From the NCBI GenBank assembly GCA_021154885.1, contig JAJKHS010000144.1:248001-312000 (forward strand): a DNA stretch of 64,000 nt. Reading direction: 5' to 3'. A model generated the notes under the pieces. The model was not told the origin of the DNA. It ran no database searches and worked only from the letters and a program-made list of their open reading frames with translations. The DNA is from Thermoanaerobaculum sp. GTDB taxonomy: Bacteria > Acidobacteriota > Thermoanaerobaculia > Multivoradales > UBA5704. Positions 12,665-52,317 of the stretch are shown here, piece by piece. The translations under genes and the position numbers were made by a program. The number at the start of each line of letters is the position of its first letter. Position 1 is the stretch's first letter.

Positions 12665-13887
12665 CACTCGGCCCTCAGGGCGTCCACCGGCAGCAGGTTG
12701 GAGGCGGCGACCGCCGGCCAATAGCCGGCCGCGAGGCCGACGGCGATCGAGAGGCCGAGCCCCAGGGCCGCCGTGCCCGGGGTCAGGTTGGCCGGAAAGT
12801 GGGCGATGCGGTCTACCGCCAGCGCCACCAGCGAGCCCACGAGCACGCCGGCCAGGCCCCCGGCCAGCGACAGCAGCGACGCCTCCAGCAGGAACTGGCG
12901 GCGCACGTCCCGCTGGCGCGCCCCCAGCGCCCGGCGCAGGCCGATCTCCTGCGTGCGCTCGGCGACGGCGACCAGCATGATGTTCATGATCACGATCCCG
13001 CCCACCCCGAGCGACACCGAAGCGATGAGCACGGTGAGCAGGAAGGCCGCGGTCGAGATCTGGCGCCAGATCTCCTGCAGGCTCTCGGCGGTGATGATGC
13101 CGAAGGGATCGGGGGCGCGGAAGTCGGTGTGGCGCAGAGCCCGCAGCAGCGCCCGCGCCTCGTCGGCCGAGGTCTCGACTCCTTCGACCCCGTCCCGGGC
13201 CTGGATCAGGACGTCGAGCGTCGTGCGGCCGCCGCTGAACGCCTTGCGATGGGTGTCAATGGGCACCATGACCACGTTGTCGCGGCTCTCGCCGAGAGTC
13301 TTCCCCTGCTGGGTGAGCAGACCGATCACCCGGAAGGGGACGCCGTCGATCAGGACGTCGCGGCCGATCGGGTCGAGATGCGGATAGAGCTCGTCCTTGA
13401 CGTCCCAGCCGATCACCGCGACGGCCTGGCCGGCCCGCGCTTCACTGTCCAGGAAATACCGTCCCGCCGCCAGATCCAGGCTCATCAGGGAGGCGTAGTT
13501 CGCCGTGGTGCCTTGGATCCGGACGCCGCCGAGGCGGTGATCGCGGAAGGTGACGGCGGCCGTGCCCCCCACCTGCGCCCCCACCTGCGCGGCCTGCTTC
13601 AGCTCCGCCCGCAGCCGCTGGTAATCCTCCCAGTTGACGTCCGGCCGCTTCAAGGCATCCAGGAACTCCTCATGGCTACGGATGATGCCGAACTTGGTGA
13701 CCACGAAGACGTCGGGAGCCAGGCCGAAGAGCTTGTCGCGGACGAAGACGTTGAGCCCCGAGATCACCGAGATCACGCCGACCAGCGTCGCCACTCCGAT
13801 GACGATGCCGAGCAGCGTGAGGAAGCTGCGCAGAGCATGTGTCCGGATGGCCCGCAGGGCTTCGCTGAACAGCTCCGCGAGATCCAT
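12664..13887 (-). CDS. MacB/FtsX-type ABC transporter permease (first of pair)
   Basis: A 407-residue permease paralogous to its downstream neighbour. The N-terminal helix is LRSFLTLLGIVIGVATLVGV; the periplasmic domain spans about residues 45-280; three C-terminal helices carry EIGLRRALGARQRDV. Start and stop overlap the adjacent genes by one base each (TAATG upstream, TGATG downstream), so the three-gene operon is tightly coupled. Two different half-permeases in one operon suggest a heterodimer. The matching ATPase must be encoded elsewhere; the ATPase at 21821-22486 belongs to a separate operon. Confidence 0.88.
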   Translation of the reverse strand: MDLAELFSEALRAIRTHALRSFLTLLGIVIGVATLVGVISVISGLNVFVRDKLFGLAPDVFVVTKFGIIRSHEEFLDALKRPDVNWEDYQRLRAELKQAAQVGAQVGGTAAVTFRDHRLGGVRIQGTTANYASLMSLDLAAGRYFLDSEARAGQAVAVIGWDVKDELYPHLDPIGRDVLIDGVPFRVIGLLTQQGKTLGESRDNVVMVPIDTHRKAFSGGRTTLDVLIQARDGVEGVETSADEARALLRALRHTDFRAPDPFGIITAESLQEIWRQISTAAFLLTVLIASVSLGVGGIVIMNIMLVAVAERTQEIGLRRALGARQRDVRRQFLLEASLLSLAGGLAGVLVGSLVALAVDRIAHFPANLTPGTAALGLGLSIAVGLAAGYWPAVAASNLLPVDALRAE

Positions 13888-38353: not shown

Positions 38354-41300
38354 ATGCCCTCAGAAACCATCGCCACCATCGCCAGCATCGCGGTCATTGC
38401 AGAGAAGCCCGCCGTCGCCCGGGACATCGCCCGTGTGCTCGGCGCGAGCCAGCGGGGGGAGGGCTTTCTCCAGGGCAACGGCTACGTCGTGACCTGGGCC
38501 ATCGGCCATCTGGTCACCCTCGCCCAGCCCCACGAGATCAATCCGGACTGGCGGCGCTGGCGGCGGGACCTGCTGCCCATGCTCCCCCGCGACTGGCCTC
38601 TCGTCGTCGCCGAGGACACGAAGGAGCAGTTCGAGGCCGTCCGCCGGGTGATCACCGCCCCCGGCGTCGAGCGCATCGTCTGCGCCACGGACGCCGGCCG
38701 CGAGGGCGAGCTGATCTTCCGCTACATCTACGAGGCGGCCGGCTGCTCCAAGCCCGTGCAGCGGCTGTGGATCTCCTCGCTCACCGCCGACGCCATCCGC
38801 CAGGGCTTCCGCAAGCTGCGCGACGGCCACGACTTCGACCCGCTCGCCGACGCCGCCCGCGGCCGCAGCCGGGCCGACTGGCTGGTGGGGATGAACCTCT
38901 CCCGCGCCTACACCCTGGACTTCAACGAGGACCTCTCCGTGGGGCGCGTCCAGACCCCCACGCTCGCCATGCTGGTGGAGCGCGAGCTGGCCATCCGCGC
39001 CTTCGTGCCTGAGGACTACCTGGAGGTTCTGGCCACCTTCTCGCCCGAGGGGACTATCGGGGCCAGGGGAATCGAGGAGGAAGCCCGTCCTTCTTATAAA
39101 GGCACCTGGTTCCGGGGAGACTCACCCCATCCCGAGGCGAAGCGGATCAAGGCGGCGCCGGACGCGAAGCCGGGGTCGGATCTCGAAGAGGCCATGCGGA
39201 TCGTCGGCCGGGCTCGCACCGGCCGGGCGGAGATCGAGTCGATCCGCGCCGAGACCAAGAGGATGCCGCCGCCGCTCCTCTACGACTTGACGGAGCTGCA
39301 GCGCCACGCCAACCGCCTCTACGGCTTCAGCGCCAAGAAGACCCTGGGGCTCGCCCAGACCCTCTACGAGCAGAAGAAGCTCATCAGCTATCCGCGCACG
39401 GACAGCCGCCACCTCTCGACCGACGTCGCCGCCACCCTGAACGAGATCGTGCGCGCCGTCGAGGGTCCCTATCTCAACAAGCTGGCCCCCGGCACCGGCG
39501 AGCGGCCCTTGAGCAAGCGGTTCGTGGACGACTCCAAGGTCACGGACCACCACGCCATCATCCCCACGCCGACCTCGCCCGCGGGCGCCGACCTCCTCGA
39601 CGACGAGCGCAAGGTCTACGACCTCATCTGCCGGCGCCTGCTCTCCGCCTGGCACGACGACCACGTCTGGTCCGTCACCACCGTCATCACCGCCATCAGC
39701 AATCCCCCGCCCTCGGGGATCGGCGAGCCGGCCGTGGACCGCTACCACAGCACCGGCACGCTGGTGGATCAGGTGGGCTGGAAGGTGCTCGATATCGAGA
39801 GGAAGAAGGCGAAGAGAAAGGACGACAAGGACGACAGGGACGACAGGGACAAGAAGAAGGACGACGAGGCCGCCGACCCCGCTCCCGTCGAGGAGAACCA
39901 GGACCTGCCGCCGGGCCTGACCCAGGGCCAGGCGCAGGAGGTGCTGGACGTCCGCGCCGTGGCCAAGCAGACCCGGCCGCCCAAGCGCTTCACCGAGGCG
40001 ACCCTCCTCACCGCCATGGAGACGGCCGGCAAGACCCTGGACGACAAGGAGCTCTCCGACGCGATGAAGGAGTCCGGCCTGGGGACTCCGGCCACCCGGG
40101 CGGAGATCATCGAAACCCTCCTGCGCCGCGAGTACATCGTGCGCACCGGCAAGACCCTGGAGGCGACCGACAAGGGCGTCCGCCTCGTCGAGGTCGTCCA
40201 CCCCCACGTCAAGAGCCCCGCCATGACCGGTCAGTGGGAGGCCCAGCTCCAGCGCATCCAGCGCGGCCAGGGCGATCTCGCGGCGTTCATGAAGGGGATC
40301 GAGGAGTACGTGCGGGAGGTGGTGGGGGGAGGCCTCACCTGCCCGGCCGCCACCCCCCTCCCAAGATCCCTCACCCCTGTCCCCTCTCCCGCCGCACTCC
40401 CCCCGACCGGGAGAGGGGGACCCGGAGGTCGCGGTCTTGCTGGTCTCCCTCTTCTCCCGGTTGGGGGGAGTGCGGTGGGAGAAGAGGGTCGGGGTGATGA
40501 GGGTCTTGGGCGGGCGCGCTCTGAGGCCAGGGTAGCCGCCCCCCGCGCCCACGACCTCCCCACCCTCCTCCGCACCGCCTTCCGCCTCACCGCCTTCCGT
40601 CCCTACCAGGAGGCGGTCTGCAAAGCGGTCGTGGCAGGCAAGGACGTCCTCCTCGTCATGCCCACGGGCGCCGGCAAGTCGCTCTGCTATCAGCTCCCCG
40701 GCCTCGCCCGGGGGGGCACGACGCTGGTCGTCTCGCCGCTGATCGCCCTGATGGAGGATCAGGTGGCCAAGCTCCGGGAGCTGGGCCTCAAGGCCGAGCG
40801 CATCCACTCGGGCCGGGATCGCTCCGCGTCGCGGCAGGTGTGCCTGGATTATCTGGCGGGCAAGCTCGACTACCTCTTCATCGCCCCCGAGCGTCTCTCC
40901 GTCCCCGGCTTTCCCGAGATGCTGGCCAGGCGCACGCCGGCCCTCATCGCGGTCGACGAGGCGCACTGCATCTCCCAGTGGGGGCACGACTTCCGGCCCG
41001 ACTACCGGCTGCTGGGCGGACGCCTGCCGCTGCTCCGGCCGGCGCCGGTCATCGCCCTGACCGCCACCGCCACGCCGCTCGTGCAGGACGACATCGCCGC
41101 CCAGCTCGGCCTCGCCCGCGAGGAGCGCTTCATCCACGGCTTCCGGCGCACCAACATCGCCGTCGAGCCGGTGGAGATGCTCCCCTCGGACCGCGCCGAC
41201 ACCGTCCGCCGCATCCTGGCGGACCCCGAGCGCCGGCCGGCCATCGTCTACGCCCCCACCCGCAAGGAGGCAGACCTCCTCGGCACGCTCCTGCACGACG

Positions 41301-42604
41301 ACTTCCCCGCCGCCACCTATCACGCCGGCATGACCACCCACGAGCGCGACCGCGTGCAGACCGCCTTCCTCTCCGGCCGGCTGGAGGTCATCGTCGCCAC
41401 CATCGCCTTCGGCATGGGGGTGGACAAGGCGAACATCCGCACGGTCATCCACACCGGCCTGCCCGGGAGCGTCGAAGGCTACTACCAGGAGATCGGCCGC
41501 GCCGGCCGCGACGGCCTCCCCTCGCGCGCCATCCTCCTCTACTCCTACAACGACCGCCGCAGCCACGAATGGTTCCACAACCGCGACTACCCCGAGGTGG
41601 CCGAGCTCGACCGCATCTTCCGCGCCCTCAATTCCCAGTCCCAGGTGGACGGCCAGGTCCGCAAACGGCTGGGGATGGACGAGGAGCTCTTCGAGCGCGC
41701 CCTGGAGAAGCTGTGGATCCACGGCGGCGCCCTGGTGGACGCGGACGGCAACGTCGCCCTCGGCACGACTGCGGCCAGCGGCTGGCAGCGGGCCTACCTG
41801 GCGCAGCGCGACCACAAGCTCGAGCAGCTCGAGCGGATGGTGCGCTACGCCGAGTCCCACGGCTGCCGCATGCTCCATCTCGTGCGCCACTTCGGCGACC
41901 AGGAGGACTCAGGGCAGCCGTGCGGCCTGTGCGACGTCTGCGCTCCGGACGACTGCGTGGCCCGCCGCTTCCGGGCGCCCAACGACCTGGAGCGGGAGCT
42001 GCTGGTCAGCGTCCTCAAAGGCCTGCGCCGGCGCGACGGCCAGTCCACCGGCCAGCTCTACCGCGAGATCTGCCCGGACGAGCTCTCGGACCGCAAGTCC
42101 TTCGAGCGCCTGCTGGGCGGCATGGCCCGCGCCGGCCTCCTCAGGCTCCAGGAGGACGCCTTCGAGAAGGACGGCAAGACCATCCGCTTCCAGCGCGCCG
42201 TCCTGACCCCCGAAGGCTACAACGGCGATCCGGCGATCATCGGCCGGGTGGAGATGGCCGAGGAGATGCCCAAGACGCGGAAGAAGCGCCAGCGCCCAGA
42301 CAAGGGGGAATCTCGGGCCTATCGCGAGCGGCTCGCGGCCCGCGCCGGCCAGGAGGGCCTCGCACCCGGCGCGGCGCCCGAGCTGGTCTCGCCGCCGCTC
42401 GTCGAGGCCCTCAAGGTCTGGCGCCGGGCCGAGGCCAGCCGCCGGCGCGTTCCCGCCTTCCGCATCCTCACCGACCGCGCCGTCCACGCCCTCGCCGCCA
42501 GCCGGCCGCAGAGCGAGTCCGACCTCCTCAACGTCCCCGGCATCGGGCCGACGATCGTGCAGAAATATGGGCGGGAGATCCTGGGGATCGTGGGCCAGGG
42601 GTGA
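38354..42604 (+). CDS. Topoisomerase III-RecQ helicase fusion protein
   Basis: A 1416-residue fusion. Residues 1-665 are a type IA topoisomerase: TOPRIM (VIAEKPAVARDIARVLGA with Glu17; CATDAGREGE, Asp113-Glu119) and active-site Tyr346 in LISYPRTDSRHL. Residues about 735-1225 are a RecQ helicase: PTGAGKS (Lys775), VDEAHCISQWGHDFRPDY (Asp868), RQC zinc ligands (CRMLHLVRHFGD...CGLCDVC), and a C-terminal HRDC domain. Top3 and RecQ normally act as partner proteins to dissolve double Holliday junctions; here both lie in one chain. A Lys/Asp-rich insert (about 485-505) and a palindromic repeat (670-719) interrupt conserved regions. No C-terminal topoisomerase zinc ribbons. Start codon ambiguous by three codons (TTG upstream). 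Confidence 0.92.
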   Translation: MPSETIATIASIAVIAEKPAVARDIARVLGASQRGEGFLQGNGYVVTWAIGHLVTLAQPHEINPDWRRWRRDLLPMLPRDWPLVVAEDTKEQFEAVRRVITAPGVERIVCATDAGREGELIFRYIYEAAGCSKPVQRLWISSLTADAIRQGFRKLRDGHDFDPLADAARGRSRADWLVGMNLSRAYTLDFNEDLSVGRVQTPTLAMLVERELAIRAFVPEDYLEVLATFSPEGTIGARGIEEEARPSYKGTWFRGDSPHPEAKRIKAAPDAKPGSDLEEAMRIVGRARTGRAEIESIRAETKRMPPPLLYDLTELQRHANRLYGFSAKKTLGLAQTLYEQKKLISYPRTDSRHLSTDVAATLNEIVRAVEGPYLNKLAPGTGERPLSKRFVDDSKVTDHHAIIPTPTSPAGADLLDDERKVYDLICRRLLSAWHDDHVWSVTTVITAISNPPPSGIGEPAVDRYHSTGTLVDQVGWKVLDIERKKAKRKDDKDDRDDRDKKKDDEAADPAPVEENQDLPPGLTQGQAQEVLDVRAVAKQTRPPKRFTEATLLTAMETAGKTLDDKELSDAMKESGLGTPATRAEIIETLLRREYIVRTGKTLEATDKGVRLVEVVHPHVKSPAMTGQWEAQLQRIQRGQGDLAAFMKGIEEYVREVVGGGLTCPAATPLPRSLTPVPSPAALPPTGRGGPGGRGLAGLPLLPVGGSAVGEEGRGDEGLGRARSEARVAAPRAHDLPTLLRTAFRLTAFRPYQEAVCKAVVAGKDVLLVMPTGAGKSLCYQLPGLARGGTTLVVSPLIALMEDQVAKLRELGLKAERIHSGRDRSASRQVCLDYLAGKLDYLFIAPERLSVPGFPEMLARRTPALIAVDEAHCISQWGHDFRPDYRLLGGRLPLLRPAPVIALTATATPLVQDDIAAQLGLAREERFIHGFRRTNIAVEPVEMLPSDRADTVRRILADPERRPAIVYAPTRKEADLLGTLLHDDFPAATYHAGMTTHERDRVQTAFLSGRLEVIVATIAFGMGVDKANIRTVIHTGLPGSVEGYYQEIGRAGRDGLPSRAILLYSYNDRRSHEWFHNRDYPEVAELDRIFRALNSQSQVDGQVRKRLGMDEELFERALEKLWIHGGALVDADGNVALGTTAASGWQRAYLAQRDHKLEQLERMVRYAESHGCRMLHLVRHFGDQEDSGQPCGLCDVCAPDDCVARRFRAPNDLERELLVSVLKGLRRRDGQSTGQLYREICPDELSDRKSFERLLGGMARAGLLRLQEDAFEKDGKTIRFQRAVLTPEGYNGDPAIIGRVEMAEEMPKTRKKRQRPDKGESRAYRERLAARAGQEGLAPGAAPELVSPPLVEALKVWRRAEASRRRVPAFRILTDRAVHALAASRPQSESDLLNVPGIGPTIVQKYGREILGIVGQG
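40361..40509. repeat. Palindromic repeat element embedded in the coding linker
   Basis: Two arms (40361-40422 and 40442-40509) form a long imperfect hairpin: CCAAGATCCCTCACCCC pairs with GGGGTGATGAGGGTCTTGG, and a 23-base stretch beginning CCGCACTCCCCCC at about 40393 is inverted at about 40453 with one mismatch. Such CTCACCCC...CTCCCG...GGGAGAGGGG elements are common intergenic repeats in GC-rich bacteria. Here it is read in frame, giving the Pro/Gly-rich linker (residues about 670-719) between the topoisomerase and helicase. Confidence 0.75.
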
Positions 42605-42676
42605 AGGCCGATCCGGCCGTCCCGCCGTATCATCAGAGCCGGCGCCAATGATCCGCCGCCCTGGAGGTCCGATCCC

Positions 42677-43471
42677 ATGAGCACCATCCTGAAGCTCTCC
42701 TTCCTCGCCCTGGTCCTGGCCGTCCTCGCTCCCCGCGGGGGCTCCGGCGCGGCGGCGGCCGACTCCGACCGCACCGCCGTCGTCGAGCTCTTCACCTCCC
42801 AGGGGTGCTCGAGCTGCCCGCCGGCGGATAGATTGCTGGCCAAGCTGGCCCACGACCCCCAGTACCAGGGGAGGGTCATCCCGCTATCGTTCCACGTCGA
42901 CTACTGGAACTACATCGGCTGGCAGGACCCCTTCTCCTCGGCGCGCTGGTCCGACCGGCAGAAGCTCTACGGTGCCCGGGTGTTCCACACCAACCGGATC
43001 TACACCCCGCAGGTGGTGATCAACGGCCGGGCGGAGTGCGTGGGCTCCGAGGAGGGGCAGGTGATCGGCCGCATCGGCGACGCCCTGAGCCAGGAGCCGG
43101 CCGGCCGGGTCACCCTGGCCGTCGATCCGCCCACGCCGGACGGCCACCTGCGGGTGAAAGTGGGAGCCAAGATGGCCCGCGCCGCCGGATCGGGGGACCT
43201 CGACCTCTGGGTGGCCATCTACGAGAGCGGGCTGTCCACGCCGGTGAAGGCGGGGGAGAACGCCTCGCGCGTCCTGCGCAATGACCGGGTGGTGCGCCGC
43301 TTCGAGAAGGCCCTGACCCTGCCGGCCGCCGCCGGCTCCGAGAAGTCGGCCGAGATCGTCCTCGGCATCGACAAGCGCTGGAAGGTGGACGCCCTGGGAG
43401 TGGCCGCCTTCCTCCAGGACCCGGCGACCCTGGCCATCCAGGGAGCGGCGGCGCGAGAGGTGGGGCGGTAG
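42677..43471 (+). CDS. DUF1223 secreted thioredoxin-fold protein
   Basis: A 264-residue exported protein with a signal peptide (about 1-27) and the DUF1223 core VVELFTSQGCSSCPPADRLL, with redox pair Cys44/Cys47, followed by SFHVDYWNYIGWQDPFSS and YTPQVVINGRAECVGS. It is thioredoxin-like but of unproven function; a thiol-oxidoreductase role is plausible. GGAGGTCCGATCCC precedes the ATG. Its last 127 bases, including the stop, are repeated at 44409-44538 on the other side of a foreign-looking insertion. Confidence 0.88.
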   Translation: MSTILKLSFLALVLAVLAPRGGSGAAAADSDRTAVVELFTSQGCSSCPPADRLLAKLAHDPQYQGRVIPLSFHVDYWNYIGWQDPFSSARWSDRQKLYGARVFHTNRIYTPQVVINGRAECVGSEEGQVIGRIGDALSQEPAGRVTLAVDPPTPDGHLRVKVGAKMARAAGSGDLDLWVAIYESGLSTPVKAGENASRVLRNDRVVRRFEKALTLPAAAGSEKSAEIVLGIDKRWKVDALGVAAFLQDPATLAIQGAAAREVGR

Positions 43472-43475
43472 GAGC
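43349..43475 (+). repeat. Direct repeat copy 1 (3' end of DUF1223 gene)
   Basis: These 127 bases comprise the last 41 codons of the DUF1223 gene, its stop and GGAGC. They are repeated at 44409-44538 with one substitution (ATCGAC/GTCGAC) and one added GTG triplet. The pair flanks 933 bases holding a Panacea gene and a toxin remnant. The toxin-like frame on the minus strand loses similarity exactly at the edge of this copy. Confidence 0.9.
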
Positions 43476-43615
43476 GGGTGTCTACATGACTTGAGGGCGT
43501 CGATGAGCTCGGCCAATAGACGGGTACACTTACCCTGCTCGCTGCTGTTGAGCGAGTTGAGCTCTTTTTGGAAGGTCTTGTCAAGCCAGGTTGGCTCGTA
43601 AGGAACGACAGGTCT
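43476..43615 (-). pseudogene. Truncated toxin-like gene downstream of the Panacea antitoxin
   Basis: In the frame shifted by one from the Panacea gene, the minus strand reads GRPVVPYEPTWLDKTFQKEL, NSLNSSEQGKCTRLLAEL, IDALKSCRHP, a compact helical sequence reminiscent of the N-terminal part of RelE-like or other small toxins. Similarity stops precisely at 43475/43476, the border of the direct repeat; beyond it the frame runs antisense through DUF1223 and is not plausible. No clear start codon is visible, so both ends look damaged. Toxin identity is an inference from position. Confidence 0.55.
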
Positions 43616-44219
43616 ACCCAGCCAGCTTGCGCCTCAAGTATTCATGCGGATCATCGATGGGCTCGCCCCATTCCTCCTCATTCGTGAAATCAAGGTAGGG
43701 GAGACGACCACAAAATGCCTGGTAACCATCGGCCAACCTGGAATAGGCGTCCTCATCCACGGCAGCTCGACGGTTCTTACCCCAGACGTGAGAATCGAAG
43801 TGGGTGTTTAGCGCCTTCGTCAATCTTCCCAGACTTCCTGCGTCCATCCGTCCATACTTTTCGGCGACCAGGTCCACAATGGCCAGCTCTTCCTCGGTGA
43901 GGTCGTTGTCTGGTTCGCCAGCCAGGGAGATCTGCTTGCCGCCTTCTGAGAAGGAGTGCGGCGAGATGTCAAAAGGTCCTTGGATGTCGCCGCCATTCTG
44001 GACGTAGGACCAGACCTCGCTCGTGACGACGCCATGATCCCAGGTCTCGTGCGTGCCATCGGTTATGTGGCGACCAAGATAGTGGGTCGCCTCGACGTCG
44101 ACCAGGTAGGGAAGCTTCACGGCACGGGTCGTGGTCATCGGGCCTAGCTTTTCGCATAGCCTTGCCACGACCGCCTCAAGCCTTCGGCTTAGGCGCTCGC
44201 CTTTTCTCAGTTTCGCCAT
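43614..44219 (-). CDS. Panacea (SocA-like) antitoxin-domain protein
   Basis: A 201-residue protein with a Panacea/DUF4065-type core: VKLPYLVDVEATHYLGR, TWDHGVVTSEVWSYV, a mid-protein EEELAIVDLVAEKYGRMDA and LGRLTKALNTHFDSHVWG. Panacea proteins act as chaperone-like antitoxins for many unrelated toxins. The gene following it on this strand is a truncated toxin-like frame, so the system is probably inactive or the antitoxin is now an orphan. Start ATG with GGAGCTCCAAGA upstream. AT content is higher than in the neighbours, consistent with recent arrival. Confidence 0.75.
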   Translation of the reverse strand: MAKLRKGERLSRRLEAVVARLCEKLGPMTTTRAVKLPYLVDVEATHYLGRHITDGTHETWDHGVVTSEVWSYVQNGGDIQGPFDISPHSFSEGGKQISLAGEPDNDLTEEELAIVDLVAEKYGRMDAGSLGRLTKALNTHFDSHVWGKNRRAAVDEDAYSRLADGYQAFCGRLPYLDFTNEEEWGEPIDDPHEYLRRKLAG

Positions 44220-44408
44220 TCTTGGAGCTCCGCCAGACAGCACAGGCTGGGGAATCATGAAAGCCAGCCTTGGGCCTCAGCATACCACTACCAAGCTGCC
44301 TACACAAAATCTAAGGGTCCTGGTAGACACTGGTACCAGATTTAGTGGCGCAAGAAAGGCGTAGGGCCGTCCACAGTGCCTCCATGCCGGGAAAAGGCGG
44401 GGAGAAAT

Positions 44409-44538
44409 GCCGAGATCGTCCTCGGCGTCGACAAGCGCTGGAAGGTGGACGCCCTGGGAGTGGCCGCCTTCCTCCAGGACCCGGCGACCCTGGCCATCCA
44501 GGGAGCGGCGGCGCGAGAGGTGGTGGGGCGGTAGGAGC
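44409..44538 (+). repeat. Direct repeat copy 2 (duplicated end of DUF1223 gene)
   Basis: These 130 bases duplicate 43349-43475, reading in frame EIVLGVDKRWKVDALG ... GAAAREVVGR and stop, but without the rest of the gene. It is a C-terminal fragment of the DUF1223 gene and marks the far edge of the Panacea insertion. Bases 44220-44408 between the Panacea start and this copy hold no recognisable gene; they presumably carry its promoter and include the palindrome TGGTACCA near 44332. Confidence 0.9.
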
Positions 44539-44576
44539 CTGCTTCGGCCATAGCAGGAATCGCTGTCAAGGCAGCA

Positions 44577-44828
44577 GTCACTGCTGGGCCGCCAGCGGTC
44601 GCTGCTGGGCTGGCAGCAGTCGTTGCTGGCTCGGCAGCGGTCGCTGCTGGGCCGCCAGCGGTCGTCGCTGGGCCGGCAGCAGTCGCTGCTGGGTCGCCAG
44701 CGGTCGTTGCTGGGCTGGCAGCAGTCACTGCTGGGCCGGCAGCGATCGTCGCTAGGCTGGCAGCAGTCGCTGCTGGGCCGGCAGCGGTCGTTGCTGGGCT
44801 GGCAGCGGCCGTTGCTGGCTCGGCAGCA
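44577..44828. repeat. Minisatellite, 12 units of 21 bp
   Basis: Twelve consecutive 21-base units with consensus GTCGCTGCTGGGCCGGCAGC plus A/G. Each unit is an imperfect palindrome (CGCTGC ... GCAGCG). Because 21 is a multiple of three, several frames on both strands stay open, giving heptapeptide repeats such as LGRQRSL (plus) and Ala/Thr/Pro-rich repeats (minus). No convincing start and ribosome-binding site goes with any of them, so I treat it as non-coding. The remaining 44829-44942 holds only a decayed further unit. Confidence 0.9.
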
Positions 44829-44942
44829 GCCGCTGGCAAGGTAGGAGTCGCCGCTGCCGTGATAGCAGTTGGCGCTCGCCACCAGCCGTTCAGAGCTGCG
44901 GTATGGAGATTGCCTGGAAGCGGGAGAAAAGGACCAGGCGGC

Positions 44943-45737
44943 CTAGGAAGGCGCGGCGGCAGGCTTCACGACCCGGAAGGTCCAGGTCTTGTCGGACAGC
45001 GGGGAGCCGTCCTTCCGGAGCCGGAGGGTGTATTCACCGGGCTCCAGGCCGGCGCGGATAAGGACTATATGGACACCTTGGACACCAGGGAGAGGGCTGA
45101 GGGGACTTCTCTGGGAGACCTTTCCCGTCTCGTCCACGACCTCGGCTTCGAGGTTTCCCGAAGCGTTCGTCGTCAGGAACAGGACTTTGAACCGGTCGTT
45201 GGGAAACTCTTGGATAGAGCTCCGCACCACGCCACCCGCACCCATGTCGACCGTATCGAAATCGAAGGCGACGAGAGTCTTCGTGTGGGCGAGTTGATCG
45301 CCCGGCTGCCGGACGGCGTGGAGCCAGCCGCCCGCGGCCACCGTCGCCGCCAGGCTCGCGGCGAGGGCCGCGGCGCGCCAGGTCCGCGGGGCGGCGCCGG
45401 CTGCGGGACGCGGCTTCGCGACCGGGAACACGGCGACGTTGTCCTCCTCCTCCAGCCGCCGGCTCATTCGCGCCATCTCCAACTCCGCGGCGCACTCGGC
45501 GCACGCGGCCAGGTGCTCCTCGGCGGCGAGAGAGGGGTCTTCCCCCCAGGCGAGAGCCACCAGATCCTGGGCGGGGACGTGCTGGGTGAACACCGACCAG
45601 GCCTGTCCGGTCTCGGCCAGGGCCGCGCGGCAGCGTTCGCAGGTCTCCAGGTGCTGCCGGACTTCGGCGAGCTCCCCGGATTCGAGGGTGCCATTCAGGT
45701 ACCAGGGGAGGAGCTCGATGGCTTGGTCACAGGTCAT
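44943..45737 (-). CDS. Anti-sigma factor with two zinc-finger motifs
   Basis: A 264-residue membrane protein. Two zf-HC2-type motifs are visible in the cytoplasmic part: HLETCERCRAAL (about 29-40) and HLAACAECAAEL (about 73-84). A transmembrane helix (AAALAASLAATVAAGGWL) follows near residue 125, and a periplasmic beta domain (VVDETGKVSQ ... GEYTLRLRKDGSPLSDKTW) ends the protein. It should sequester the sigma factor encoded directly upstream; the genes overlap by 11 bases. The sensory domain resembles the beta-sandwich in other such regulators. Start ATG lacks a strong Shine-Dalgarno, as expected for coupled translation. Confidence 0.85.
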   Translation of the reverse strand: MTCDQAIELLPWYLNGTLESGELAEVRQHLETCERCRAALAETGQAWSVFTQHVPAQDLVALAWGEDPSLAAEEHLAACAECAAELEMARMSRRLEEEDNVAVFPVAKPRPAAGAAPRTWRAAALAASLAATVAAGGWLHAVRQPGDQLAHTKTLVAFDFDTVDMGAGGVVRSSIQEFPNDRFKVLFLTTNASGNLEAEVVDETGKVSQRSPLSPLPGVQGVHIVLIRAGLEPGEYTLRLRKDGSPLSDKTWTFRVVKPAAAPS

Positions 45738-46395
45738 TAGGTTTCGCCCTTTCACTCTTGTTAGGCGAACCTTTGACCGTGACGTTACGCCCATTCGCCG
45801 TCCCGCCGTCCAGGAGATCCCGCCTCAAGGCGGCCGCCTTCTCCCGGCAGCGCAGGACGCGCACCCGCAGCGTCCCCTCCGCGACGTTCAGGCGCACGCT
45901 CATCTCCTTGTAAGAGAGGCCCGCCAGGATCATGCGCCACATCTCCCGGCAGTCCTGAGAGACCCGCTCCAGCACTCTGAGGAGCAGGTCCCGGTCCTCC
46001 CGGTTGGAGGTGGGGACGTGGAACGCGGCGGCGGGGCCCTCCCCCTGGTCCAGGGTGTCCAGATCGGCCCACTTCCACTTGCTCTGGGCCCGGAGTTGGT
46101 CGAGGCAGGTGTGGCTGACCACCCGCCAGAGATAGGTGCGCAGGCTCGACTCGCCCCGGAACTTCCCCTGGCCGAGGAGGCGCGTCACCTCCAGCCGGAC
46201 GTCCTGGAGGACGTCGTCCCAGCGGTCGGCCAGCCGGCGCTGATATGGCCACGCGGCGCGCGAGATCCAGCCGTCCACCGTCCCTACCGCCTCGGTTTCG
46301 CCCCGTAGAAAGCGGGCGACCATCTCCCGGTCGTCCGTCGCCATAGACAACATCCTATAGTCTCCAGTCCCCCTTGCGTATTCTCCAGGCTCCAT
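45727..46395 (-). CDS. ECF-type RNA polymerase sigma factor
   Basis: A 222-residue sigma-70 family protein with region 2 (RLADRWDDVLQDVRLEVTRL, SSLRTYLWRVVSHTCLDQLR) and region 4 (MWRMILAGLSYKEMSVRLNV, AEGTLRVRVLRCREK). The C-terminal tail (after about 195) is a charged extension. AGAGGAGGACTCGCG precedes ATG 46395, fixing the start against internal Met at 14 and 18. It is co-encoded with the anti-sigma factor and divergent, with a 45-base gap, from the CHAT protein gene, its likely target. Confidence 0.9.
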   Translation of the reverse strand: MEPGEYARGTGDYRMLSMATDDREMVARFLRGETEAVGTVDGWISRAAWPYQRRLADRWDDVLQDVRLEVTRLLGQGKFRGESSLRTYLWRVVSHTCLDQLRAQSKWKWADLDTLDQGEGPAAAFHVPTSNREDRDLLLRVLERVSQDCREMWRMILAGLSYKEMSVRLNVAEGTLRVRVLRCREKAAALRRDLLDGGTANGRNVTVKGSPNKSERAKPNDL

Positions 46396-46440
46396 CGCGA
46401 GTCCTCCTCTACGAAGTTCTTCGCCGCGAGTGCGATAAAC

Positions 46441-49400
46441 TTGACCTACGTGACAGCTTCGTGCGCATTCCGCTCACTTCGCATCCTCTCCTTCTGCGGA
46501 GTGGCCTTGCTGGTGGCCGGCCTCGCGGCGGGATGTAGGCGTAAGCCCCTGGCTCCCTACCCCGGCGACCTGGGGCTTCCACCGCAGCCGGGTTCCTTTA
46601 TCGAGCGCGAGGTCCGCGGCGGGGCGAGACAGGGATTCAGCCTTCGCGTTACCGACGGTACCTTCGTCGTCCTCGAGATCTCTCAGCGTCGCGCCAGTCT
46701 GTCGTCCAGACTGCGGGATCCGTACGGAGACGAGGTTGCCGTGGGGGAGGGAGGTGGATCTCTCGACTCCCAACTCCTCGCTTGGATAGCTAGGGAGACC
46801 GGCACCTACCGCATCGACGTGAGCGCCTCGGGCTCACCGAAGCTCGCAGGCCGATACAGGGTGACGGTGCGTGTGATGCAACACCCGCCGGTGGCCGGGG
46901 ACGAGGCCCGGGTCAGAGCTGCCAAGGCACTGACCGAGGGCCGTCGTTTCGAAAAGAGCAGGCGCCGAGAGGCGATCACTCGGTTGCAGGAAGCTCTCGC
47001 CGCGTGGAAGGAGGCGGGAGACGGCCGTGGCGAGGTGGAGACCCTCGGAGACCTGGCCCTCCTGAAAAGCCACCAGGGGGACCCTCAGGCCGCCCGCGAC
47101 TGGCAGAAGAAGGCCGTGGCGCGCGCCCATGAGATCGGTTTTACGGGAGGTGAGGCCAGGGCCCTCTCCAACCTGGGCGACTACACCCTGCCCTCGGGAC
47201 AGTACGACCAGGCGATCGATCTCTACCGGCGATCCCTGAGCCTCTGGCGCCAGGCGGGCGGGGCTTACGAGCAGGCTTCCACGCTCGAAAGCCTTGGCAC
47301 CGCTTATCTGTACCAGGGTAAGCCGGATGCTGCACTGGAGGCGTTTCAAGAGGCCCTGCCTCTGGCCGTCGAGGCCGGTGACGTCGTGCGGCAGGCCAGG
47401 GTCCTGATCGGCATCGGTTCCTCCCGCTACAACGAGGGCCAACTCGGCGAGGCGCGGCAGGCCTTCGAGAAGGCCTTGGAGCTCAGCCGGTCCGTCGGCG
47501 GCGACGCGAGGTCCGAAGTCTCGGCGGAGCACAACCTGGGTGCGATCTACCAAACCAAAGGTCAGCTCCAGAAGGCGGTGGAGATGTATACCCGGCTGGT
47601 CCGCTCAGGGGGGCAGCCCGAGGATGTGGGGGTCCACTTTCTCAACTTGGGCGCGATCTTCCTCGAGTTGGGGGAGCCGGAGAAGGCACTGAAAAACTAC
47701 ACTCTCTCCAGAGAGGCCTACCACCAGGCGGGTAGACCCGACCTCGAGGTCGGTGCGCTGGTCGGCATTGGCTCGGCTTATCAGAGGATGGGAGAAAAGG
47801 CCAAGGCGCTGGGTGTGCTCGAAGAGGCTCGCAGGGTAGCTCCTCAGGAATCGTGGACCGTTCTCCATTACCTGGGAGTCGCGCAGTACGTCGCGGGCCG
47901 GCCCCAGGAAGCGCTTCCCACCCTGGAGCGGGCGCTCGCCAAGGCCCAAGCGAGCCACACCCCTTCGAGCGAAGCTCCAACCCTGCTTGCGTTGGGCTCG
48001 GTCTACCGTGACCTGGGCAAGCTGGATCTCGCGGCCGACCGGTTCGGTCAGGCCATCGCTGTGGGGTCCTCCATCGAATTGCAGAGAGTCGTAGCTCCTG
48101 CTCTGCTGCGGCGTGCCGGGCTGTGGAGTGACCGGGGCCGCCTCGCCGCGGCCCGGAGCGACGTCGAGAGCGCCCTGAAGATCGTCGAGTCCACGCGGGA
48201 CAACATTGCGGGATCGCAGCTCCGGACGAGCTTCCTGGCCAACCGGCGGAATTTCTACGAGCTCTACATTGGCTTGCTGCTGCGGCTGGCCCGCTCGCAT
48301 CCCGGGAAGCACTACGAGGACCTGGCCTTGGCGGCCAGCGAGCAGGCCCGGGCCCGCGGGATGCTGGACCTGCTGGCGGAAGGACGCATCGACGTCAGCC
48401 AGGGGCTCGACCCCGATCTTCGACAGCGGGAGAACCAGCTCTCCGACGAGCTCGCCCAGGCGCAGATCCACCTGCGCGATCCCGGGACGACGCCGGACCA
48501 AGCCCGGGACCTGCGCGCAGCGCTCGACCGTCTGGACGAGCGCTGGCAGGCGCTCGACCTGGAGATCCACGCCCGCAACCCGCGCTACGCCCAGGTCCGT
48601 TACCCGAAGCCGCTGACCTCCTCCGAGATCCAGCGCCGGGTCCTCGACGACCGCACGGCCCTGCTCGAGTTCTTCCTCGGAGAGGAGAGCTCCGTCCTGT
48701 TCGTGGTGACCCGCTCGCAGATCCACAGCTTTCCCCTGCCTCCCGAGGGGGTCATTGCGGAACAGGTCCAGCGGCTGCGAGAGGCTCTGGAGAAGGAGAG
48801 CAATCTCACCCGCAAGGACTATTTCGATCTGGCTTACCGGCTGTATCAGACGCTCCTGGCGCCGGCTTCCAGGTCGTTCGTCGGCAAGTCCTATCTTCTG
48901 GTCGCCCCCGACGGGCCGCTCTATTACATCCCCTTCGAAACCCTGCTCACCGCGCCGGTGACGGAGGACCGTGACTACGGGAGCCTGCCCTATCTCCTGC
49001 GCCAAGTCCCCATCGCCTACGTCCCGTCGGCCAGCGTGCTCGCCGGCCTGCGCGATCCGCGGCCGGAGCCTCTGGCGGCGGAGCGCACGCAGGTCGCGGC
49101 CTTCGCCCCTTTCGCCTCGTCCGCGCAGAGCGGGTTCCAGCGCCTGCCCGCCTCCCAGCAGGAGGTCGCCGGAATCGCCGGGCTCTATCCCGGGGAGGCG
49201 GTGAGCTTCCTGGACGATGCGGCCACCGAGGACGTGGTCAGAAGTCCCCGGGTGGCCAGCGCCCGCCGGCTCCACCTCGCCACCCACGCGAAGACCGACG
49301 AGCGCTATCCGGAGAACTCCTACCTGGCGCTGAGGGCGCGCGGCGGCTCCGGGGGGCTGCTGCAGGTGCGCGAGATCTTCAACCTCAAACTGTCCGCGGA

Positions 49401-49695
49401 GTTGGCCGTCCTGTCAGCCTGCCAGACGGGGCTGGGCAAGGAGGTTACGGGCGAGGGCCTGGTCGGTTTGACGCGAGCTTTCTTCTATGCCGGTGTGCCT
49501 AGTCTCGTGGTAAGTCTGTGGAACGTCACGGATGGGCCGACGCCGGATCTGATGCTGGATTTCTACAAAGATCTCGACCAGCTGCACGATAAGAGCAAAG
49601 CGCTGCAGAGAGCCAAGCTGAAGATGATTGCGGATGGTCGATACCCCCATCCCTCCTACTGGGCGCCCTTCATACTGATCGGAGAGCCTCGATGA
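46441..49695 (+). CDS. CHAT-domain TPR lipoprotein (caspase-like peptidase)
   Basis: A 1084-residue protein. A lipoprotein signal (LSFCGVALLVAGLAAGC) is followed by a beta-rich N-terminal domain (to about 140), about ten tetratricopeptide repeats (150-600), a coiled linker, and a C-terminal CHAT domain (about 760-1080). The catalytic pair of this caspase-like family is present: His949 in HLATHAKT and Cys994 in LSACQTGLG. Export and lipid anchoring would place the peptidase outside the cytoplasm, which is unusual. Start is TTG; the GTG three codons on is equally plausible. The adjacent sigma/anti-sigma pair probably controls it. Confidence 0.88.
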   Translation: MTYVTASCAFRSLRILSFCGVALLVAGLAAGCRRKPLAPYPGDLGLPPQPGSFIEREVRGGARQGFSLRVTDGTFVVLEISQRRASLSSRLRDPYGDEVAVGEGGGSLDSQLLAWIARETGTYRIDVSASGSPKLAGRYRVTVRVMQHPPVAGDEARVRAAKALTEGRRFEKSRRREAITRLQEALAAWKEAGDGRGEVETLGDLALLKSHQGDPQAARDWQKKAVARAHEIGFTGGEARALSNLGDYTLPSGQYDQAIDLYRRSLSLWRQAGGAYEQASTLESLGTAYLYQGKPDAALEAFQEALPLAVEAGDVVRQARVLIGIGSSRYNEGQLGEARQAFEKALELSRSVGGDARSEVSAEHNLGAIYQTKGQLQKAVEMYTRLVRSGGQPEDVGVHFLNLGAIFLELGEPEKALKNYTLSREAYHQAGRPDLEVGALVGIGSAYQRMGEKAKALGVLEEARRVAPQESWTVLHYLGVAQYVAGRPQEALPTLERALAKAQASHTPSSEAPTLLALGSVYRDLGKLDLAADRFGQAIAVGSSIELQRVVAPALLRRAGLWSDRGRLAAARSDVESALKIVESTRDNIAGSQLRTSFLANRRNFYELYIGLLLRLARSHPGKHYEDLALAASEQARARGMLDLLAEGRIDVSQGLDPDLRQRENQLSDELAQAQIHLRDPGTTPDQARDLRAALDRLDERWQALDLEIHARNPRYAQVRYPKPLTSSEIQRRVLDDRTALLEFFLGEESSVLFVVTRSQIHSFPLPPEGVIAEQVQRLREALEKESNLTRKDYFDLAYRLYQTLLAPASRSFVGKSYLLVAPDGPLYYIPFETLLTAPVTEDRDYGSLPYLLRQVPIAYVPSASVLAGLRDPRPEPLAAERTQVAAFAPFASSAQSGFQRLPASQQEVAGIAGLYPGEAVSFLDDAATEDVVRSPRVASARRLHLATHAKTDERYPENSYLALRARGGSGGLLQVREIFNLKLSAELAVLSACQTGLGKEVTGEGLVGLTRAFFYAGVPSLVVSLWNVTDGPTPDLMLDFYKDLDQLHDKSKALQRAKLKMIADGRYPHPSYWAPFILIGEPR

Positions 49696-49877
49696 GAATG
49701 CGCGTAACGCCGGACCCTGTACGACGCCTATAAGAGGCCGTGAGCGGCCGGTCTGGAGAGACGGCCCAGCAGTCATAGACGAATTGCTATTAAAACAGCC
49801 GGCGCGGAGCCCCATCGCTCTGGCGCTCAATCATGCCACCGGGCGGGATCGACGTCTGTCCGGCAAGGAGGGATCAA

Positions 49878-50162
49878 ATGTCCACAATACCAGTTGGGGA
49901 TTCCGCTGAAGACGGTCCGATCTATCACATACCTGTCGGTCCTCCTCCGCCCAGAGCGGTGCAGGTGATCGCTCTCGTTCTCGCGGTGATCGCGACGATT
50001 CTGGGTTTCCTGGGGCGCGGTCCCCTCGCCGGGATCGCGGCGTTGGGCAGCTTCATTTTCGGCGCCTACGACCTCGCCACTACCGTGAATACGGTCAACG
50101 TTTCCACGAACGTGGTCGACAGAGAAGGCAAACTGAACATGAAACAGCTCGAGCGAAAATAG
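49878..50162 (+). CDS. Small membrane protein
   Basis: A 94-residue protein with a strong ribosome-binding site (AAGGAGGGATCAA before ATG). A polar N-terminus is followed by two hydrophobic segments (VQVIALVLAVIATILGFL and AGIAALGSFIFGAYDL) and a C-terminal tail (NVSTNVVDREGKLNMKQLER). No family recognised. It follows the CHAT gene by 182 bases and may be in the same transcript; it ends before the hairpin at 50183. A regulatory or structural membrane role is possible. Confidence 0.6.
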   Translation: MSTIPVGDSAEDGPIYHIPVGPPPPRAVQVIALVLAVIATILGFLGRGPLAGIAALGSFIFGAYDLATTVNTVNVSTNVVDREGKLNMKQLERK

Positions 50163-50182
50163 AGAGGCATCGGTTTACGCCC

Positions 50183-50215
50183 CGCCCCCGCCCGGCCTCA
50201 GCGCCGGCGGGGGCG
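50183..50215 (+). terminator. GC-rich hairpin terminator
   Basis: CGCCCCCGCCCGGC (50183-50196) pairs with GCCGGCGGGGGCG (50203-50215) with a single bulged C and a six-base loop, followed by TCTGTCT. It lies 20 bases after the stop of the small membrane protein gene and separates it from the SIMPL gene. Confidence 0.7.
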
Positions 50216-50221
50216 TCTGTC

Positions 50222-50227
50222 TATACT
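50222..50227 (+). promoter_or_regulatory. Possible -10 element for the SIMPL gene
   Basis: TATACT lies 30 bases upstream of the ATG at 50252, just after the terminator hairpin. The matching -35 region falls inside the hairpin arm and has no TTGACA-like sequence. Weak support. Confidence 0.3.
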
Positions 50228-50251
50228 GGTGGGCGGCAAAGGAGAGACCTC

Positions 50252-51040
50252 ATGCGCAAGCACCGCAAACACCGCAAACACCGCAAACACCGCAAACGAC
50301 TGACGATCGCCGCCGTCCTGGCCCTGCTGGCGCTGCCCCTGGCGGCCCAGGCTCCCAGGCCGCCGGCGGGAGGAGGGCCCATGGATGCCGCCGTTCCCAC
50401 CCTCATCGTGTCGGGCTCGGGCCAGGCCCGGGTGGCTCCCGACGAGGCCAACGTCCGGCTGGGGGTGGTGGCCCAGGCGCCCACCGCCCGCGCCGTCCAG
50501 GACCAGGTGAACCGCACCGCCAACGCCGTGCTGGACGCTATCCGCAAGGTGGGGATCCCGGCCGAGGAGATCCAGACCTCCGGTCTCTCGCTCTCCCCCC
50601 TCTACTCGCAGAACCGGCCGGGCGCCGAGAACCAAGCTCCCCGGATCACCGGTTATCAGGCCAACAACACGGTCAGCGTGCGGGTGACCGACCTCGCCAA
50701 GGTCGGCCCGGTCGTCGACGCCGGCCTCGGCGCCGGGGCCAACACCCTGGAGGGGGTCGACTTCGGGCTGCGCAACGACGAGGCGGCCCGCGCCCAGGCC
50801 CTGGCCGACGCCGCGCGGGCGGCCCGCGCCAAGGCCGAGACCCTGGCCAAGGCCCTCGGTCTGCACCTGGGGGAGATCCTGGAGGTCGCGGAGGGAGGAG
50901 TGTCGGTCCAGCCGCCGCCCTCGCCGCGGTTTGGAGTCGCCCGCATGGCGATGGCGGAGTCCATGGCTCCGACTCCGGTTTCGGCTGGCCAGGTGGGAGT
51001 CGAGGCGAGCGTCACGATCCGGTATCGGATCTCCCAATGA
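50252..51040 (+). CDS. SIMPL-domain (DUF541) secreted protein
   Basis: A 262-residue exported protein. After an unusual start, MRKHRKHRKHRKHRKR, come a hydrophobic signal (LTIAAVLALLALPLAAQA) and the SIMPL domain (LIVSGSGQARVAPDEANVRL, ITGYQANNTVSVRV, LVDAGLGAGA-like core, ARAKAETLAKALGL). SIMPL proteins are periplasmic, widespread and of unclear function, often linked to envelope stress. AAAGGAGAGACCTC precedes the ATG. The (HRK)4 stretch comes from a 9-base tandem repeat CACCGCAAA and exaggerates the positive n-region. Confidence 0.85.
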   Translation: MRKHRKHRKHRKHRKRLTIAAVLALLALPLAAQAPRPPAGGGPMDAAVPTLIVSGSGQARVAPDEANVRLGVVAQAPTARAVQDQVNRTANAVLDAIRKVGIPAEEIQTSGLSLSPLYSQNRPGAENQAPRITGYQANNTVSVRVTDLAKVGPVVDAGLGAGANTLEGVDFGLRNDEAARAQALADAARAARAKAETLAKALGLHLGEILEVAEGGVSVQPPPSPRFGVARMAMAESMAPTPVSAGQVGVEASVTIRYRISQ

Positions 51041-51053
51041 CGGGGATCGCCCC

Positions 51054-51497
51054 ATGACGGCCGAGGAGGTCGTCCGGCTCCTCGGCCTCGCTCCCCATCC
51101 CGAGGGGGGCTTCTACCGCGAGACGTTCCGCGCTCCGGCGCCCGAGGGGGAGCGCGGCGCCTCGACGGCCATCTATTACCTGCTGCCGGAAGGGAAGGTG
51201 TCGGCCTGGCACCGGGTGGTGGACGCCGACGAGGTCTGGCACCACTACGCCGGCGCTCCCCTGGAGCTGATCCTCTGGGATGGCCGGGAGCGCTCGGCTG
51301 TGCTCCTGGGCCCGGACCTCGCGGCCGGTCAGCGGCCCCAGGGGGTGGTGCCGGCCGGGGTCTGGCAGACGGCCCGCACCCTGGGCGGCTGGACCCTCGT
51401 GGGGTGCACGGTGGCGCCGGGGTTCCAGTTCGCCAGCTTCGAGATGGCGCCCCAGGGGTGGACGCCTACTCCCCCTCGATCGCCGCGAGCTGGCTGA
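51054..51497 (+). CDS. Cupin (DUF985/cupin_5) protein
   Basis: A 147-residue cupin. Motif landmarks: LGLAPHPEGGFYRETFRAP, STAIYYLLPEGKVSAWHRV, DEVWHHYAGAPLELIL and GVWQTARTLGGWTLVGCTVA, the pattern of the DUF985 family. The family binds a metal or small ligand, with no firmly assigned reaction. It begins 13 bases after the SIMPL gene. Its last 32 bases overlap the convergent nucleotidyltransferase-like gene. I use the ATG at 51054 after GGGATCGCCCC. Confidence 0.85.
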   Translation: MTAEEVVRLLGLAPHPEGGFYRETFRAPAPEGERGASTAIYYLLPEGKVSAWHRVVDADEVWHHYAGAPLELILWDGRERSAVLLGPDLAAGQRPQGVVPAGVWQTARTLGGWTLVGCTVAPGFQFASFEMAPQGWTPTPPRSPRAG

Positions 51498-52317
51498 GGT
51501 CGCCGTCCTTCTCGGCGGCGAGCGTCCAGCGCTCGACCTCCTCGGGGCTCATGTTCCCTTCGGGGCGCAGGCGGGCGTCCTCATAGCCCCACTGGAGAAT
51601 GTCCACCAGGTACTGGGAGCGGGAGAGGATCGGGCCGCGGCAGATCCTCTCGTCCTCTTCGCCGGCGGTGTCGCTGCGCAGGCGGCCGGCGAGGGTCTCC
51701 AGGACGCGGCCGGGGATGAGGCCGGCTCTTCCCGGGTAGATGTAGCCGAAGAGGACGAGGTGGGCGAAGAGCACCCGCCAGCCGCCGTGAGGCTCGAAGC
51801 GGCGGAGGAGGCGGTCCCAGTCCAGGTCCGTGGCGCGGGAGTGGAGCACGTGCGCCACGTCGGCGCCGTCGAAGCGCTCGCGCTCCATGATGAAGGACTT
51901 CGACCAGATCATCTCCTCGGCCGGCACGAGCTTCGCGGGGCGGTCGAGGACCGTCTCGTCCACCGCGTGCTCGAACCACTCGTCGTCGACCCGGGCGACG
52001 CCGTTGCCGGAGCTGAAGATCACGTCCACGAAGTCGTCGCCCTGGAAGCCCTTGCCCAGCCAGTGGGCGAAGGTGCGCTCGGTCTTCCAGCCTTTGCGGG
52101 TGAAGACGTCGAGGGCGCGGTCGAAGTCCCGGGGGCGGACGAAGACGTCGAAGTCCTTGGTGTGGCGGACGATGCCGGTATAGCGGGCATAGGCGTAGGC
52201 GCCCCCCACGAGGTAGGGGACGCCCCCCTCTTCGAAGGCTGCCATGGCCTCGCGATAGAAGTCCAGGGTCTCGGGAGCCAGGACGTTCTGCGCCTGCGGG
52301 GTTTTGGTCTCGATCAT
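51466..52317 (-). CDS. Nucleotidyltransferase-fold protein
   Basis: A 283-residue cytoplasmic protein with a nucleotidyltransferase-like N-terminal region: VPYLVGGAYAYARYTG (G-[GS] motif) and HTKDFDVFVRPRDFD (the paired acidic residues), then a third acidic strand in DDFVDVIFSS. A helical C-terminal half follows. The family includes aminoglycoside- and protein-modifying enzymes and antitoxin-like domains, so substrate is open. Start ATG lies 24 codons into a longer frame. It converges with the cupin gene (32-base overlap). Confidence 0.72.
   Translation of the reverse strand: MIETKTPQAQNVLAPETLDFYREAMAAFEEGGVPYLVGGAYAYARYTGIVRHTKDFDVFVRPRDFDRALDVFTRKGWKTERTFAHWLGKGFQGDDFVDVIFSSGNGVARVDDEWFEHAVDETVLDRPAKLVPAEEMIWSKSFIMERERFDGADVAHVLHSRATDLDWDRLLRRFEPHGGWRVLFAHLVLFGYIYPGRAGLIPGRVLETLAGRLRSDTAGEEDERICRGPILSRSQYLVDILQWGYEDARLRPEGNMSPEEVERWTLAAEKDGDLSQLAAIEGE

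Follow-up and report, generated by a model that had tools for sequence, protein, structure and literature searches.

A TPR-CHAT protein recurrently linked to ECF sigma/anti-sigma pairs in Acidobacteriota: a possible envelope counterpart of Craspase

CRISPR defence provides a known case of caspase-like control of a sigma factor, through a protease-inhibitor-sigma unit whose origin is unsettled. In Craspase, the type III-E system, the protease Csx29 is described as cutting Csx30 at residues 427-429, where the C-terminal domain forms a small flexible loop, a cut that relieves the inhibition of CASP-sigma, a sigma factor resembling those of the extracytoplasmic function (ECF) kind (PMC10028731). 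In Myxococcus xanthus, DdvA is reported as the transmembrane anti-sigma factor of the ECF sigma factor DdvS, its signal being given as unknown in the 2015 paper (PMC4374960). Further parallels are provided by RseA/DegS and by the CalpL/CalpT/CalpS system, in which CalpL cuts the anti-sigma factor CalpT (PMC11417357); in both, as these sources present them, a first protease cut removes the anti-sigma factor and frees the ECF sigma factor (PMC10028731, PMC11417357), the proteases being DegS and a Lon-type enzyme rather than caspase-like ones. CHAT proteins also appear in the gene context of the ECF54 group, where proteolytic control has been proposed for sigma factors without an anti-sigma factor (PMC8999054). 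Here we describe a three-gene module, with an anti-sigma factor, from a stretch of 64,000 nucleotides (the window) of contig JAJKHS010000144.1 (C144) in the 8.2-Mb genome of a Thermoanaerobaculum sp. (Acidobacteriota, class Thermoanaerobaculia). An ECF sigma gene and an overlapping anti-sigma gene lie on the minus strand, and a gene for a tetratricopeptide repeat (TPR) protein with a CHAT peptidase domain diverges from them on the plus strand. With somewhat less than even confidence, we propose that the TPR-CHAT protein is an arginine-specific protease that makes the first cut in the anti-sigma factor, that is, an envelope counterpart of Craspase free of CRISPR. No description of such a module was found in the open-licence literature, and neither was a paper on SAVED-CHAT/PCaspase.

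The sigma gene (45727-46344, minus strand) encodes a protein that matches TIGR02937 at 65.1 bits (cut-off 42.9), with the Pfam models of regions 2 and 4 scoring exactly at their cut-offs. Its longest open reading frame (ORF) runs from 46395; the start is probably the ATG at 46344, because the orthologous DNA has a common AGGA element there and the protein alignment becomes conserved at that point. The overlapping anti-sigma gene (44943-45737, minus strand) encodes a zf-HC2 domain (PF13490, 47.6 bits against a cut-off of 22.2) with two HxxxCxxC motifs, each of them retained by the two orthologs; the second (residues 75-82) gives the impression of a fusion of two zinc-finger domains. An intergenic region (46345-46440) leads to the TPR-CHAT gene (46441-49695, plus strand; 1084 residues from a TTG start), whose product carries TPRs (PF13424, 193 bits) and a CHAT domain (PF12770, 220 bits against a cut-off of 24). 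An earlier note on this DNA had named the same gene set, including an intact His949 and Cys994 in the CHAT protein, and the profile scores and alignments bear it out; its coordinates began at 45727 and so left most of the anti-sigma gene outside. The divergent triplet is found in two other genomes (G003 and G001) of the four in the family, our own included. The G003 orthologs are 67% (sigma), 54% (first half of the anti-sigma) and 41% (CHAT) identical to ours; in G001 the sigma ortholog is 68% identical and read with an interruption, and CHAT lies in two frames (L065, 4054-8061), which would reflect either decay or an assembly error. G002 gave no match for the anti-sigma. Within the triplet, the sigma factor evolves slowest, and the outer domain of the anti-sigma and CHAT evolve fastest.

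The CHAT gene beside the sigma/anti-sigma pair is more than a chance neighbor. Our own genome holds 38 CHAT matches, and an ECF sigma gene lies within 4 kb of 14 of the 20 that score above 150 bits, of 2 of the 18 weaker ones, and of 2 of the 81 ATP-binding cassette (ABC) ATPases that served as a control set (Fisher p = 8e-11 for 14/20 against 2/81); nine of 68 sigma matches (short or confined to region 4) and eight of 89 ABC matches (weak or partial) were removed before counting. The order of genes varies among these modules, with CHAT upstream, downstream, divergent or convergent. Further, sigma and CHAT distances correlate over the 14 modules (r = 0.45, p = 0.002) and over 13 modules once a single distant pair is set aside (r = 0.50, p = 0.0005). 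Searches of genome contigs with the single CHAT protein returned no relatives, and those with an alignment (A1) recovered them. Among 77 loci from named genomes, an ECF sigma gene lies within 4 kb of 20 of the 41 non-cyanobacterial CHAT relatives and of none of the 36 cyanobacterial ones; the sigma profile was made from 17 sequences of our own genome, and cyanobacterial sigma factors may therefore be under-detected. Two of the 20 linked loci (L100 and L108) have a kinase beside the sigma gene and no anti-sigma, and in a third (L133) the sigma gene is about 3 kb away. Hence, the tie drawn in the earlier note between a predicted exported CHAT protein and an envelope sigma/anti-sigma pair is supported, and it recurs over the genome and the phylum. 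As a separate observation, two sigma/anti-sigma/CHAT modules follow each other at one locus (L032, 3221-18755), and beyond them lies a further CHAT gene, the third of the locus and a short one.

The proteins beside the module sigma factors start with a zinc finger or a zinc-less N-terminal domain and mostly have one strong membrane helix; many of them, zinc finger or not, share the same C-terminal domain of about 110 residues. The seed for this domain comprised 27 sequences chosen by eye among module anti-sigmas (24 of them in alignment A6), and leave-one-out profiles recover 25 of the 27 at E < 0.001, the window copy scoring 0.005 and that of L095 0.11. Pfam offers no fitting model: the best E value was 0.0033, for a match to 2 of 15 members. 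A model of the copy at L140 (predicted local distance difference test, pLDDT, 89.1) is a nine-strand sandwich of the general immunoglobulin (Ig)-like kind; among known structures its best matches, of middling Z score, are Ig-like folds of a general type or phage baseplate folds. At E < 1e-6 our own genome yields 11 matches, and all but one (C6:30139) have a CHAT gene no more than 3 kb away. This count is partly circular, because CHAT-linked loci were the source from which the seed was chosen by eye; two of the ten CHAT-linked matches (contig C12, L038) belong to proteins that adjoin a CHAT but are unlike typical anti-sigmas. The unseen genomes are free of this circularity. In 15 of these from the phylum, 10 of 12 domain matches have a CHAT gene no further away than about 4.3 kb; all five genomes with the domain have CHAT, all seven without CHAT lack the domain, and three have CHAT without it. 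In 18 further genomes, CHAT lies within about 6 kb of 27 of 37 matches. The domain is present in 24 of 149 genomes. The resulting 39 validation loci, several of them cut by contig ends, include two refetched known CHAT-less cases (L232 and L233) that repeat two earlier unseen rows. Two side observations concern outer domains. At L038, two Ig-like-domain proteins that are not typical anti-sigmas (4271-5524 and 11676-12875) flank CHAT number 15, and the nearest sigma gene adjoins a kinase-like gene. At L115 (KSB1), L118 (an "Actinomycetota" bin) and L132 (Gemmatimonadota), CHAT-linked zinc-finger anti-sigmas end in an outer domain that, by eye, is TPR-like.

The most conserved residue of the Ig-like domain is an arginine, present in 26 of the 27 seed rows with a lysine in the remaining one. 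It is kept in all 13 covered rows of a 15-row set from unseen genomes and in 32 of the 33 covered rows of the 39-row set, again with a single lysine; the next-best column of the latter set reaches 82%. Most rows have G, S or D at the next position. The arginine sits in the first loop of the domain (12-22), which joins strands 1 and 2 and is the part of the L140 model with the lowest confidence; this loop is probably flexible. In the window, where the domain is a divergent member of the group (44946-45272, minus strand; profile match E 1.7e-11, own-genome search E 1.3e-12, in both cases with itself in the seed), the arginine is Arg172 (45222-45224), and the bond R|SSI is the candidate cut site.

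The CHAT protein was modelled with AlphaFold2 from 41 sequences (pLDDT 87.3, predicted template modelling score 0.81) as a signal helix (residues 9-30), a beta-sandwich domain (53-144; 46597-46872), a TPR solenoid (152-601; 46894-48243) and the CHAT domain (797-1082; 48829-49686), all on the plus strand. The beta domain is PPC-like in relatives; of five scanned with PF04151, one scored over the cut-off and one below it, and the window copy gave no match. The predicted catalytic His949 (49285-49287) and Cys994 (49420-49422) are in place and conserved, as is Asp1031 (49531-49533), which lies 37 residues past the cysteine in the motif AGAxxVVxxLWxVxD. All three residues are found in each of the 14 sigma-linked CHATs of our own genome and in 76 of 77 external ones, the remaining one having an unread base at the histidine. 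The motif is common to separase, and Asp1031 aligns with the aspartate of its LWDVTD, through which separase binds the arginine after which it cuts. Accordingly, an arginine specificity of the CHAT protein would fit this shared aspartate.

Several features point to the export of this protein. The in-frame starts TTG 46441 and GTG 46450 both precede the hydrophobic stretch, and the predicted signal sequence (46441-46536) ends in a lipobox-like LAAGC with Cys32, judged by eye to be acceptable and not canonical; among the orthologs, L065 (from GTG 4748) has a canonical LALGC and L064 a signal-like segment without the cysteine. A crude codon-score gene finder favoured instead a start at 46876, past the beta domain, which we overrode because the beta domain and the leader are conserved in relatives. 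The protein is thus predicted to be exported, probably as a lipoprotein. Leader-like N-termini are found in most CHAT relatives, the cyanobacterial ones included, and the predicted export is therefore a trait of the subfamily and not of the sigma link.

How the module compares with known systems is suggested by a fold search with the modelled protein. The best match is the TPR-CHAT protein of Craspase (7y83_D; Z 30.2, root mean square deviation (rmsd) 7.1, 565 residues). Craspase and the module share a TPR-CHAT protein, a sigma inhibitor and an ECF-like sigma factor, a likeness treated here as an analogy, whatever the relation of the anti-sigma to Csx30. Among the differences, Craspase is cytoplasmic, and Csx29 is RNA-activated and has MWKVRS in place of the LWxVxD aspartate. 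No cas7-11 (gRAMP) gene was seen among the four neighbors of the module that were scanned with Pfam, to which the search for cas genes was confined. Separase (5u1s_A; Z 26.4, rmsd 6.4, 706 residues) has the CHAT-like fold and the motif but is eukaryotic and intracellular, with cohesin as its substrate. Finally, DdvA (8rw5; Z 23.0, rmsd 6.4, 621 residues; Z 22-23 for 8rot and 8rw5) may be regarded as the nearest solved relative: an ECF sigma factor is held by a transmembrane anti-sigma, and the anti-sigma carries a TPR-CHAT region, whose CHAT-type His and Cys motifs were aligned by a sequence match that is itself weak (E 0.12). DdvA, being one chain, is thus a known instance of an anti-sigma physically joined to a TPR-CHAT region. 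In the window the two parts are split over divergent genes, the CHAT protein has its own predicted leader, and the anti-sigma ends in the Ig-like domain with its conserved arginine.

Taking together the linkage, the correlated divergence, the shared domain, the loop arginine, the fold and the catalytic residues, along with the parallels in Craspase, CalpL and DegS, we favour a reading in which CHAT cuts the anti-sigma. The anti-sigma would hold the ECF sigma factor and expose its C-terminal Ig-like domain outside the cytoplasm, and the TPR-CHAT protein, predicted to be exported and probably a lipoprotein, would use its TPR and beta domains to recognise a signal or partner. The CHAT domain, acting as a caspase-like (more precisely, separase-like) protease specific for arginine, might then cut the exposed Ig-like loop after the conserved residue, Arg172 in the window. 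After this first cut, ordinary proteases, namely an RseP-type M50 enzyme and then Clp, could clear the remainder and free the sigma factor for its putative regulon; M50 protease genes are present in our own genome. The freed sigma factor would probably also boost the expression of its own module, a positive loop being likely where the module genes are co-directional.

Several findings weigh against this proposal. The window anti-sigma is the least typical member of the modules: its candidate membrane helix (residues 122-138, AAALAASLAATVAAGGW; 45324-45374, minus strand) is marginal, with a hydropathy of 1.46 over 19 residues and an insertion energy of +1.5 on an approximate scale on which seven of eight scored non-ortholog module anti-sigmas are negative. 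The helix is also marginal in both orthologs, as against most relatives, in which it is clear, so that the topology of the window protein is uncertain; its Ig-like domain is divergent as well, and the leave-one-out E value given above is modest. One alignment puts the window arginine one column off. Three modules of our own genome (L035, L039 and L041) have zinc-finger anti-sigmas without the domain, and 12 of the 39 validation loci have the domain with no CHAT nearby. Most of these 12 retain the arginine, which could therefore be structural or serve another partner. The LWxVxD aspartate, for its part, is general in the CHATs of our own genome, most short ones included, and hence speaks for specificity and not for the partner; its use as a mark of the module, suggested by a regular expression that seemed to find it absent from short CHATs, was dropped when a profile alignment found it in most of them. 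Lastly, a comparison of three orthologous intergenic regions found no ECF-type promoter in common.

The main rival is a role for CHAT without proteolysis, as a sensor subunit that binds the Ig-like domain and alters the grip of the anti-sigma on the sigma factor, with the arginine as a docking residue and DdvA as the fused form. DdvA, a transmembrane anti-sigma of solved structure that includes a CHAT region, lends itself to this alternative, as do the alignment of its His and Cys motifs in the weak match and the retention of the arginine where no CHAT is near. Mere binding would have no need, however, of the His, Cys and Asp kept in every linked CHAT of our own genome, and small residues after the arginine in a flexible loop are better suited to a cut; we therefore consider a sensor of this kind rather doubtful, if the strongest of the alternatives.

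Another possibility, raised in the earlier note, is that CHAT is produced in response to the sigma factor, as a protease made under stress that acts on other substrates in the envelope or outside the cell. Of the 27 validation loci with linkage, 20 have CHAT on the strand of the sigma and anti-sigma genes (10 upstream, 10 downstream), five have it convergent and two divergent; the 20 same-strand cases are as expected for a member of the regulon, and the 36 cyanobacterial loci, with predicted exported CHATs and no sigma gene nearby, indicate that CHAT can work alone. The five convergent pairs speak against this scenario, as they imply that co-transcription is not what keeps CHAT and sigma together, and one target among many would leave unexplained why, in unseen genomes, CHAT occurs together with a particular anti-sigma domain. 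Control of the CHAT gene by the sigma factor, as the earlier note had it, thus lacks support in that form: no promoter element was shown, and a scan of 46200-46700 for sigma-70-type promoters, which does not cover ECF promoters, returned no sites. Nor does anything here support its idea of a cell-cell protease. We regard the output role as unlikely, and the evidence points to CHAT acting on the anti-sigma at least as much as to the sigma factor controlling CHAT. An intracellular suicide or defence effector placed beside the sigma locus by accident is very improbable given the linkage statistics, the leader-like N-termini of most relatives and a PADLOC search of the CHAT protein that gave TPR-type matches and one weak unnamed match and nothing else, even if CHAT-type proteases elsewhere are described in connection with cell death and CRISPR defence (PMC10028731).

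A broader generalization of the proposed cleavage, which we consider possible and on balance doubtful, is that exported TPR-CHATs are widespread, dedicated arginine-specific proteases that make the first cut in ECF anti-sigmas, with an unnamed Ig-like substrate domain bearing the cut site, about a dozen parallel caspase-gated switches in one genome, and Craspase and DdvA as derived forms of the same unit. If this were true, CRISPR-free modules that recur within a single genome and extend across Acidobacteriota and further afield would hint at the origin of the CRISPR version. With a single conserved arginine as the predicted cut site, two purified proteins and a point mutant would also be enough to put the idea to a test.

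The four genes around the module encode, by Pfam scan, a DUF1223 protein, a SocA/Panacea-domain protein, a SIMPL protein and one without a match; a search of 40000-52000 against Rfam gave no match at gathering level. A direct repeat of 120 bases (98% identity) occurs at 43349-43468, in the 3' part of the DUF1223 gene, and at 44409-44528, past the SocA/Panacea-domain gene (43614-44258, minus strand); the two copies flank this antitoxin-like gene, an arrangement that resembles an insertion accompanied by duplication. Between the second copy and the anti-sigma gene lies a tandem array of a 21-base unit (44570-44835, 12.7 copies), and a Gln/Ser/Leu-rich repeat similar to this array opens the ORF of CHAT number 27 (L015).

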